From a virus, in IMG/VR virus record IMGVR_UViG_3300015371_000120, positions 1-31,620 of that record: a stretch of DNA of 31,620 nt; one strand, given 5' to 3'. The notes below the pieces were generated by a model. The model did not search any database, was not told the origin of the DNA, and saw only the letters and a program-made list of their open reading frames with translations. This document shows, piece after piece, positions 2,431 to 6,045 of this stretch. The position numbers and the translations under genes are program-made. Position 1 is the first letter of the stretch. Each line of letters opens with the position of its first letter.

Positions 2431-2555
2431 ACTCTGCACCGCTGCGCCGCGCCACGCTACACGCCACGTCGCAGCACAGCGCGGCGTTCTGCTGCGCGCC
2501 CCGGCACGTCGCACCGCAACGCAACGTCTGCAAAAACCGCCGTGTTCTGCTATGA
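2427..2555 (+). CDS. Possible 42-aa ORF running through repeat tract 1
   Basis: An ATG overlapping the stop of the 67-aa gene opens a 42-codon frame through the five-base repeat tract. Because the DNA period is five, the peptide has a five-residue rhythm with Ala at position two (SAPLR, RATLH, SAAFC, CAPRH, VAPQR). A second ATG at 2552 overlaps its stop and leads to a seven-codon frame ending at 2575. A third at 2572 overlaps that stop and runs to 2703. The chain of ATGA overlaps would keep ribosomes moving across the tract. Whether any peptide has a function is unknown; an open frame is also expected because CGCNN seldom makes stop codons. Confidence 0.35.
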   Translation: MNSAPLRRATLHATSQHSAAFCCAPRHVAPQRNVCKNRRVLL

Positions 2556-2655
2556 ACTGCGAGGCAATGCCATGAACCGCGCCCCGCGCTGCCGCGCCGT
2601 GTTTCGCGCAGCATCGCATCGCAACATTCGGCATCGCTTCGCAGCGCAACGCCAG
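2436..2655 (+). repeat. CGCNN (GCNNC) five-base repeat tract, copy 1
   Basis: The sequence falls into consecutive five-base units of the form GCNNC, equivalent to CGCNN, held in one phase from 2436 to about 2650. Examples are GCACC GCAAC GCAAC at 2511-2525 and GCATC GCATC GCAAC at 2611-2625. The two N positions vary freely while the CGC core recurs. Units between 2526 and 2580 are more worn. The period is five, not three, so the regularity is at the DNA or RNA level. Three ATGAAC start codons lie inside or at the edge (2427, 2552, 2572). Confidence 0.88.
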
Positions 2656-2703
2656 TTCAGACTAGGGAGAAAATGCCATGAAAATCTGCACGGTCGAGTT
2701 TGA
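2572..2703 (+). CDS. Possible 43-aa ORF, second half of repeat tract 1
   Basis: This frame begins ATGAACCGC, like the other tract-associated starts, and overlaps the stop of a seven-codon frame (2552-2575). It reads an Arg/Ala/His-rich peptide (NRAPR, RAVFR, ASHRN) and ends inside the start of the 185-aa gene. It has a GAGG 8 to 11 bases upstream. I list it because of the repeated ATGAAC pattern and the overlap chain. There is no other support for a real protein. Confidence 0.25.
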   Translation: MNRAPRCRAVFRAASHRNIRHRFAAQRQFRLGRKCHENLHGRV

Positions 2704-3235
2704 AGGTCAGGCACCGTACAGCGCCAGCCGCGCCCACTGCGAACCCAAGCTGCCCAAGGAAACGCCCGACGCCTACGAGGAACGGACGTGGGCCGAAAAG
2801 GCCCATGTGATTGACGGGCAGGTCGTCATTCCCCCCATGGCGTGGAAAATGAGTGCTGACCAGGCGGCGAAGATGCTTGGCCGACAGATACCCGGCAAGG
2901 GCAAGTCGACCTATACCAAGTTTTTCCTGTCGGGGGTCATTGTCACCGAACCGGTGCCGATTGCCCCGGTCGAGGCAATCGAAAAGGAACGCATTCACGC
3001 CAACGCCGACGGGGTGCGCGGGTCGGGCAAGCGGGTCTGGCGCAATTTCCCGCGCATTGACGTCTGGCGCGGGGCGGTGACCTTTCACATTATCGCCGAC
3101 GAAATCACCGAAGACGTGTTCGAGGAAACGATTCGCTATTCGGGGCTGGCCGTCGGGGTCGGTCGGTTCCGGCCTGAACGGGGTGGTTACTTTGGCCGGT
3201 TCGAGGTCACCAAGTTCAATTGGCGCGAACTATGA
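2678..3235 (+). CDS. Conserved-looking phage protein of unknown function, 185 aa, bracketed by the two repeat tracts
   Basis: A 185-aa protein with a clear ribosome site (GGGAG, 2665-2669). It resembles a phage protein type common in replication modules. Features are a hydrophobic beta start (MKICTVEF), a conserved-looking block KLPKETPDAYEERTWAEK, a middle block IPPMAWKMSADQAAKMLG followed by IPGKGKSTYTKFFLSGV, then GSGKRVWRNFPRI, and a C-terminal glycine block GLAVGVGRFRPERGGYFGRF. That last block resembles the glycine loop of RAMP-type RNA-binding proteins such as Cas7, but this is only a resemblance. The gene sits between the two CGCNN tracts and ends in an ATGA overlap leading into tract 2. 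A nucleic-acid-binding role is the simplest guess, without proof. Confidence 0.75.
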   Translation: MKICTVEFEGQAPYSASRAHCEPKLPKETPDAYEERTWAEKAHVIDGQVVIPPMAWKMSADQAAKMLGRQIPGKGKSTYTKFFLSGVIVTEPVPIAPVEAIEKERIHANADGVRGSGKRVWRNFPRIDVWRGAVTFHIIADEITEDVFEETIRYSGLAVGVGRFRPERGGYFGRFEVTKFNWREL

Positions 3236-3642
3236 ACTCGCCTCGCCCTGCGTCACCACGCATCGCAGCGCCCCGCGACGCAACGATTCGCCACGTCGCG
3301 CACGGCGTCGCCTTGCATCGCGCCCTGTCGCCACACGCCGCAACGCAACGACTGTTTCACCACGGCGCTGCGCGTCGCTGCCCACCGCTGCTCACTGCCG
3401 CGCACCGCACCGCAACGCGACGTTTCGCAGCCCTCGGCCCCACGGCGCAGCACCGCGCACCGCCACGAATTGCGGCGCTTCGTTTCGCGCCGCCACGCAT
3501 CGCCCCGCCCGGTTCCGCACAGCAGCGCGGCGCAACGCACTGCCGCCCGCCGCCTCTTGACGCACCGCGACGCGACGCAGGGCGACGCAACGCTTCGCCG
3601 CGCAACGCAACGCCTCAACGCCCTGAAGGAATCCGGCCATGA
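3232..3642 (+). CDS. Possible 136-aa Arg/Ala/Pro-rich ORF spanning repeat tract 2
   Basis: This frame starts at an ATG overlapping the stop of the 185-aa gene and stops at a TGA overlapping the ATG of the 169-aa gene, so it is joined by ATGA at both ends, like the authentic genes of this operon. The DNA period of five gives a five-residue peptide rhythm, for example RIAAP RDATI early and FAPPR IAPPG, NASPR NATPQ later. Composition is extreme (Arg, Ala, Pro, His, Thr). No known fold is recognised, and it does not match the A(D/N)LXX pentapeptide-repeat family. It could be a real basic disordered protein, or only a frame kept open so that translation crosses the tract. Confidence 0.4.
   Translation: MNSPRPASPRIAAPRDATIRHVAHGVALHRALSPHAATQRLFHHGAARRCPPLLTAAHRTATRRFAALGPTAQHRAPPRIAALRFAPPRIAPPGSAQQRGATHCRPPPLDAPRRDAGRRNASPRNATPQRPEGIRP
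3239..3623 (+). repeat. CGCNN five-base repeat tract, copy 2 (about 75 units)
   Basis: From 3239 to about 3353 the sequence reads as CGCNN units in one phase (CGCAT CGCAG CGCCC CGCGA at 3259-3278). A single two-base phase shift follows near 3354-3365. From 3364 to 3613 it reads as NNCGC in unbroken phase, ending GACGC AACGC TTCGC CGCGC at 3584-3603. Most units keep the CGC core and a minority have one substitution. This fills the 403-base space between two well-formed genes. Long open frames appear on both strands here because the motif rarely makes stops. Confidence 0.92.
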
Positions 3643-4148
3643 AATTCACCACCAACCCGCAAACCCAAGTCGACATTGAAATGCTGGCAAACGCCCTTGC
3701 CGCCCTCGGCCCCGACGACCTGCTGACCTACGACGGCATGACCAACCTCGTCGGGTACGACGTGCGGGCAAGGCCGTGGGCCATGCTGACCGCCCGCGAC
3801 CGGGTCGAAAAGGAAACCGGCCTGCGGTTCGGCACCGTGCGCGGCGAGGGTTATTGCAAACTGACCGCAGCTGACCTGCCCGGTATCGGCATGGCCGCCC
3901 GGGCCAAGGTCAGGGGCCTCGCCAAACGGGCCGCCGCCCGCCTGACCCGCTTGCGGTACAATGACGTCGACACCCGCTTGCAGGCCCGCCTCGACGCCGA
4001 ACGGTCGCTGCTGTTCGCGATTGGCGCGGTTGCCTCGACAAGGGGCCACCACGTCGCCGCCCTGACCAAGACCGGGCCAATCGTGGCCGAGGCGGTTTTC
4101 GACTATGTTAGGCGCGACAGCGGGGCCGGAAAGGAACCCGCGCCATGA
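3639..4148 (+). CDS. Hypothetical phage protein, 169 aa
   Basis: A 169-aa protein of unknown function with a good start (CCTGAAGGA upstream of the ATG at 3639). The first 60 residues look like a small alpha/beta unit (NALAALGPDDLLTYDGMTNLVG), consistent with a preprimosomal or winged-helix-like domain. The part from about residue 70 is basic and helical (MAARAKVRGLAKRAAARLTR). It is ATGA-coupled to the next gene. Position downstream of the initiator-like gene suggests a DNA-metabolism accessory role, which is inference only. Confidence 0.72.
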   Translation: MKFTTNPQTQVDIEMLANALAALGPDDLLTYDGMTNLVGYDVRARPWAMLTARDRVEKETGLRFGTVRGEGYCKLTAADLPGIGMAARAKVRGLAKRAAARLTRLRYNDVDTRLQARLDAERSLLFAIGAVASTRGHHVAALTKTGPIVAEAVFDYVRRDSGAGKEPAP

Positions 4149-5595: not shown

Positions 5596-6045
5596 ATGAC
5601 CGATCAGTGGAACGGCGAGGAACGCCGCAAAGAGGACTCTGACCAGCTGCGAACACTCACTGCCGATATTGTCGCCGCCCACGTTTCTAATAACTCGGTC
5701 GCAGTGAACGACCTGCCGCAGCTAATCGCCAATGTTCACGGCGCATTGCGCGGCCTGGAACAGCCGACCGAGCCCGAAAAACAACAACCGAAAGTGCCAA
5801 TCCGGCAGTCGATCAAACCCGATTACATTGTCTGCCTAGAGGACGGCAAACGGCTGAAAATGCTGAAGCGCCACCTCATGACGCATTACCAAATGACGCC
5901 TGACCAGTACCGGGCCAAGTGGGGCCTGTCGGTCGATTACCCCATGGTCGCGCCGAACTATGCCGCGCAGCGCCGCAGCTTGGCGGTCGCAATCGGCCTC
6001 GGCACCAAGCGCCGCAAGTCAGGCAGGGCAGCGGCCAAAAAATAA
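5596..6045 (+). CDS. Ros/MucR family zinc-finger transcriptional regulator
   Basis: A 149-aa Ros/MucR-type regulator, a DNA-binding repressor family of alphaproteobacteria that controls cell-surface, motility and cell-cycle genes. The N-terminal oligomerisation part reads LTADIVAAHVSNNSVAVNDL, close to the family signature. The zinc-finger region from about residue 77 has Cys80, Asp83, His93 and His97 (YIVCLEDGKRLKMLKRHLMT), followed by the typical AKWGLSVDYPMVAPNYA block. I chose the ATG at 5596 because GGGAG lies nine bases upstream; the in-frame TTG at 5581 precedes that site. An N-terminal GEERRKED stretch and a basic tail are extra. It may act on phage or host promoters. Family confident, targets unknown. 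Confidence 0.94.
   Translation: MTDQWNGEERRKEDSDQLRTLTADIVAAHVSNNSVAVNDLPQLIANVHGALRGLEQPTEPEKQQPKVPIRQSIKPDYIVCLEDGKRLKMLKRHLMTHYQMTPDQYRAKWGLSVDYPMVAPNYAAQRRSLAVAIGLGTKRRKSGRAAAKK

Follow-up and report, generated by a model that had tools for sequence, protein, structure and literature searches.

A locus in the window, that is, in the whole stretch of 31,620 nucleotides analysed here (positions 1 to 31,620 of the IMG/VR virus record IMGVR_UViG_3300015371_000120), is interpreted with high confidence as a phage VIPR system whose fixed triplet is altered. It comprises a gene of 185 amino acids (aa), vipr (2678-3235, + strand), flanked on both sides by tracts of a degenerate five-base repeat, and a downstream gene of 169 aa, vap (3639-4148, + strand). 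The tracts would serve as guide RNAs (vrRNAs) coated by the Vipr protein. According to PMC13142463 (a 2026 preprint), vrRNAs composed of pentamers with a fixed GGY triplet and a free dinucleotide (NN) direct Vipr to DNA, where the NN set the target and one target base is skipped between them. The same source gives guides of 9-16 repeats and allows GGY or an unspecified "related consensus" as fixed triplet.

The assignment of the locus to the VIPR systems described in PMC13142463 follows from (i) the Vipr family profile; (ii) the RAMP fold of the protein; (iii) the homology of Vap; and (iv) the layout of the locus in Escherichia phage SUSP1. The 185-aa protein has no Pfam match above threshold, its only match being phrog_4652, of unknown function. 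Its AF2 model, built from 72 homologues, reaches a pLDDT of 95.8, and all 50 PDB matches listed for it are type III or type VII CRISPR effector complexes or Csm3/Cas7-type subunits (E 2e-7 for the Csm3/Cas7 fold matches). The protein is, then, a RAMP of the Cas7/Csm3 type, and it carries a glycine-rich loop, GVGRFRPERGGYFGRF. The profile of its family retrieves one significant PDB sequence, the Vipr of SUSP1 (entry 36pp, E 7.4e-8), in an alignment that spans the region of this loop. A tblastn search with the window Vipr gave no match in phages, the protein being too diverged for pairwise search. The profile of the protein encoded at 3639-4148 matches the Vipr accessory protein (Vap) of SUSP1 (L027, 28031-28471; E 1.9e-17) and a gene of LESphi2 (E 5.2e-14), and a vap homologue occurs in most homologous loci. 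In the SUSP1 sequence, GGY tracts flank the vipr and vap pair on both sides.

The repeat itself is real. The sequence-only reading had described two degenerate five-base tracts bracketing the 185-aa gene and had proposed autocorrelation against shuffled controls as the check. Identity at lag 5 is 0.51 in both tract 1 and tract 2, compared with means of 0.28 and 0.32 in dinucleotide-preserving shuffles (z = 6.8 and 7.6), and none of 2000 such shuffles reaches the observed value; lags 10, 15 and 20 give peaks of similar height. The two tracts are also, as had been noticed by eye, the sole places of the 31.6 kb with such a signal: beyond them the lag-5 score peaks at 0.136, right at the border of tract 1, versus at least 0.229 in the core of that tract. 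The in-phase runs are located at 2440-2524 (17 units), 2580-2654 (15), 3239-3348 (22) and 3361-3615 (51). The last of these bears out the some 50 unbroken units claimed for the second tract; the phase slip reported there is present as well, but at 3349-3360 instead of 3354-3365. The first tract, described as kept in phase for over 40 units, is indeed repetitive but is split into two runs by a non-repeat stretch (2525-2579). As for the core, reported as near-constant CGC, it is fixed but not strictly CGC: counts per position give C in 86% of the units, G in 84% plus A in 10%, and C in 90%, with the last two positions nearly even. Hence, the unit is CRC (CGC, sometimes CAC) plus two free bases, and the triplet is perfect in 76 of the 105 units of the four runs.

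Viral contigs and a single Rhizorhabdus assembly supplied the homologues, and tract counts refer to 85 homologous loci. At least 241 relatives are found in environmental phages, an indication that the branch is a common one. Lag-5 tracts are present in 84 of the 85 loci, the one exception ending 30 bases past the gene. As for the suggestion that such tracts might always accompany the gene, 188 lie near vipr (245 kb) and 2 in the 269 kb that make up the rest of these loci, and 139 kb of unrelated phage DNA yielded one weak lag-5 signal. Altogether, 353 tracts were decoded; they commonly have 9-14 units and the penultimate NN is AA in 220 of them, which fits the 9-16 repeats published in PMC13142463. 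One locus (L047) holds a regular array in which a guide is followed by a conserved linker, CGTTTCTTTTGGC, and then by the next guide. The tract of a GGC locus (L012) ends in GCAAGGCAAGGTC and those of CRC loci in GCAACGCAACGTC, strings that differ in the triplet alone; therefore, both types are read on the same strand and in the same register. Among the traits that characterize VIPR, which also include an expressed RNA of ~100 nt bound by Vipr and a conserved structured 3' tail, the following were recovered: (i) tandem pentamer vrRNA genes of 9-16 units flanking vipr, on sequence alone; (ii) hypervariable NN, in related CRC and CAC loci; (iii) a single small RAMP with a glycine-rich loop, the 185-aa protein; and (iv) a vap accessory gene, at 3639-4148.

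The hypervariability is evident when closely related loci are compared. In the pair L076 and L084, the gene is 99.8% identical and the triplets 92%, but the NN only 39.5%; the corresponding values are 100%, 97% and 57% for L046 and L048, 87%, 94% and 25% for L075 and L089, and 98%, 95% and 80% for L059 and L064. Uninformative spacer DNA would not outpace its surroundings in change; the NN positions are not noise and very probably constitute the guide code. Near-identical phages with the same gene and triplet and different NN are as expected if guides are swapped.

These comparisons bear directly on the other explanations of the tracts. The protein might repress its own translation by binding a CRCNN leader in the message, the NN being mere spacers. 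TRAP represses translation in this way, via GAGNN repeats in a leader. The tracts do sit right in front of the vipr and vap start codons, extending up to the ribosome-binding region, but spacers would drift at the neighbouring neutral rate, whereas in near-identical loci NN changes far faster. Besides, the fold is that of a RAMP and not that of TRAP, which binds NAG repeats; the long arrays with repeated linkers lie away from start codons (L047), and guides are common to different phages (L032, L095). Such autoregulation is therefore considered highly improbable. The sequence-only reading had come close with a protein-binding scaffold, since Vipr is a RAMP whose relative binds RNAs of this kind; what it missed is the probable role of the free bases as guides. 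Its idea that CGC cores alternate on opposite faces of the DNA found no support, and a template for a structured RNA was rejected, as shuffled sequences fold at least as well as the window tracts (z +1.7 and +0.6).

Slippage or the remnant of a diversity-generating element, which had also been suggested, would make the tracts neutral DNA. CG-rich pentamers could grow by slippage, and some tracts (L002) do contain runs of identical units; nevertheless, this origin hardly accounts for tracts that accompany the gene in 84 of 85 loci and are almost confined to its surroundings, nor for a triplet that stays 92-97% identical while NN turns over, and it is judged extremely unlikely. Practically no credit is given to tract 2 as a repetitive protein-coding gene, in spite of a 140-aa open frame (3232-3642, + strand) with ATGA overlaps with both neighbours. 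Codon enumeration indicates that (CRCNN)n can hold no forward stop in any frame, so that the open frame needs no coding explanation; autocorrelation at lags 5 and 10 is as strong as that at lag 15, and other loci have their tracts in non-coding gaps, with varying phase. The non-coding design of the repeat had been correctly recognized from the letters, and the frame is not regarded as a gene.

If the locus is a VIPR system, transcription of the tracts from the + strand would yield several vrRNAs of about 9-17 CRC/NN units each, ending in AA AA. The 185-aa Vipr would coat them, each pentamer being bound by one subunit that holds CRC and displays NN; these dinucleotides would then base-pair with double-stranded DNA, with one target base skipped between them, usually at codon wobble positions. 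Aided by the downstream-encoded Vap, Vipr would silence the genes that the guides target, in rivals or in the host itself. That the window tracts are transcribed, that their RNA is bound and that genes are silenced are predictions from the SUSP1 relative.

The fixed triplet changes across the family. The dominant triplet of a locus is CGC, GGC, CAC, GTC, CTC or GAC, sometimes two of them mixed, and nearly always ends in C; six loci could not be assigned. On a maximum-likelihood tree, the triplet labels need 18 changes, versus a mean of 34 when shuffled, so that the triplet follows descent and yet switches repeatedly. Part of this variation, the CRC consensus included, may already be covered by the supplement of PMC13142463 (fig. 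S17). The first triplet base correlates strongly with Vipr residues 108-109, located just before the loop ADGVRGSGKR, but with only 4 changes on the tree: these residues are VP in 22/22 G-type loci, three CTC loci being exceptions that also have VP, and AN, LP, MN, CN or others occur with C-first triplets. As readers of the triplet, residues 108-109 are only a lead.

A candidate target was obtained for one of the window guides, C3 (3361-3420, + strand; NN = GG TG GT TG AC TG AC CG AC AC, then AA GA). Six consecutive NN of C3 recur in a guide of a close relative, L032 (0/300 shuffles). Read with a 1-base skip, C3 matches 19/20 bases in a genome belonging to the same order as Rhizorhabdus, antisense to the codons for GVRVQVHTHP (JAMM motif) and with all skipped bases at wobble positions. 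The matched gene encodes a JAB protease (PADLOC BilC, E 1.5e-15) and adjoins BilD (E 1.6e-14) and a ubiquitin-like gene; BilC and BilD are components of the Bil (bacterial ISG15-like) antiphage system. JAB domains of this type are part of ISG15-like and of type II CBASS defence (PMC10952713). The units of the L032 guide beyond the shared six provide independent support, as they lay outside the search: they match 9/14 bases in a Rhizobium bilC homologue (L132; binomial p 0.002), where they decode to P-G-x-A-Y-H and the protein reads PGAAYH, and 7/14 bases of the G999 gene (p 0.04). With regard to the skip, C3 matches 19/20 bases of one bilC and 18/20 of a second at skip 1 versus at most 14/20 at other skips, a comparison biased by the use of skip 1 in the C3 search; the L032 guide, free of that bias, matches up to 21/26 versus at most 16/26. 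For each guide on each gene, skip 1 gives the most matches (19, 18, 19 and 21 versus at most 13, 14, 16 and 16). The 1-base skip and the bilC target are thus supported, not proven. It is probable that bilC is the target of C3, and the match suggests counter-defence by the guide, in which the phage would silence Bil. The fuller proposal is evenly balanced between true and false: a VIPR branch with an evolvable triplet (C/G; G/A/T; C) whose first base follows residues 108-109, with mutually incompatible guide dialects, and in which window and L032 guides against the codons of the bilC catalytic motif silence Bil. If true, Bil would be silenced at a site where synonymous changes cannot give the host escape.

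The other window guides were searched too. Guide A (8 units) had seven matches in viral contigs, all of them chance on extension, and none with up to 3 mismatches in 401 family-level genomes. Guide B (9 units) had six, four of them in one HsdR-N-like family (FAIIKSILR); they were rejected as chance, since the upstream units mismatch and proteobacterial homologues fit just 11-13/28. The search with guide C2 gave no match. All-versus-all decoding within VIPR neighbourhoods showed nothing clear at skips 0-2 (with shuffles for skip 1 only). Two exact, wobble-aligned 9-unit matches with a 1-base skip were seen in phage contigs, one between L064 (4518-4577) and L114 (3539-3564) and one between L059 (4518-4582) and L115 (6621-6646); about 0.4 are expected by chance for each.

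Several points weigh against the interpretation as a VIPR system with a bilC guide: (i) the fixed triplet of the window is CRC, not GGY; (ii) no sigma-70 promoter was seen; (iii) RNA production and binding in the CRC branch are predicted from the SUSP1 relative; (iv) a structured tail is clear after the guides of L002, but not after those of the window; (v) no target could be accepted for guides A, B and C2; and (vi) the C3 match, taken alone, is weak because its raw counts are not above the reversed-pattern control (2 forward versus 3 control).

As for the remaining parts of the locus, all on the + strand, tract A (2440-2526; 17 units) has NN = TG CG CA TA GC GT AG AG GG TC TG GC GG GT AC, then AA AA, and tract B (2580-2654; 15 units) has NN = CC GC CG CG TT GC AT AT AA TC AT TT AG, then AA CA. 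The non-repeat stretch between them (2525-2579) is a candidate 3' tail. Within 3239-3615 the guides seem to be staggered or to overlap, in an array of a type mentioned in PMC13142463, and their limits are approximate: C1 (3239-3288; 10 units) is delimited by an AA unit near its presumed end, C2 (3289-3350; 12 units) ends in AA AA CG, C4 (3426-3535) would hold one or two overlapping guides, and C5 (about 3536-3615) includes the last units before the vap ribosome-binding region and ends in AA AA. Eight consecutive NN (GG TT TT GC CA AT CC CC) are common to C4 (3471-3510) and a tract of L095 (681-765); most of the surrounding DNA is common too, and the Vipr proteins are only about 49% identical. 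The shared units may reflect either a common target or a transferred guide.

In L002 (3567-4000), from a low-GC phage, there are three CAC/CGC guides, each with a nearly identical hairpin tail (TCTTCG...CGAAGA) behind it; judging from its sequence, this is clearly a tailed vrRNA array. In L003 (344-818) and L004 (3290-3764), vipr is broken by an internal deletion and a frameshift, and guide tracts persist on both sides. The vipr homologue of L015 (3001-3591) has ATA in place of ATG at the expected start, and a long frame runs through the upstream tract. Just upstream of the window guides, 1673-2230 encodes a protein with a REase fold (MTES_1575/DUF559) and weak PADLOC matches; it was rejected as a fixed VIPR partner, since it was not seen beside vipr in related loci. 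A ROS/MucR-type transcriptional regulator encoded at 5596-6045 (Pfam E 1e-49) suggests an alphaproteobacterial host.

VIPR has been known for a few months, and its code was tested with GGY guides in PMC13142463. Related Vipr proteins beside six fixed triplets make the rule of protein-RNA recognition directly testable, and the triplet series could yield guide systems without cross-talk. If natural guides do hit an operon for ubiquitin-like defence, as they seem to, counter-defence would join the uses already known for VIPR.

Among known systems, Bil is a host defence and a candidate target (BilC/BilD by PADLOC), and no relative of the locus. TRAP and its trp leader (GAGNN) share with the window a pentamer made of a fixed triplet and a free dinucleotide; nevertheless, the fold is different and the NN of TRAP are spacers, whereas those of the window change as guides do. 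Class 1 CRISPR RAMPs (Cas7/Csm3) resemble Vipr in fold, glycine-rich loop and, by homology, probably in guide RNA coating, but the CRISPR guide is continuous while that of the window would be read two bases per five. No CRISPR array or cas operon was found, with no Rfam match (CRISPR repeats included) and no cas-family match among the tested neighbours. The closest system is the VIPR of SUSP1 (type II in PMC13142463), with homologous Vipr and Vap, guides on both sides and pentamers with hypervariable NN. It differs in its triplet (GGY, versus CRC in the window), in a strongly diverged Vipr, and in the guide ends, which in the window read AA AA CG and have a tail that is short or of another kind. 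The tracts had been put forward as something undescribed; the kind was in fact reported in 2026 as VIPR (PMC13142463), and what appears to be new here, relative to that description, is a fixed triplet that is different and switches.
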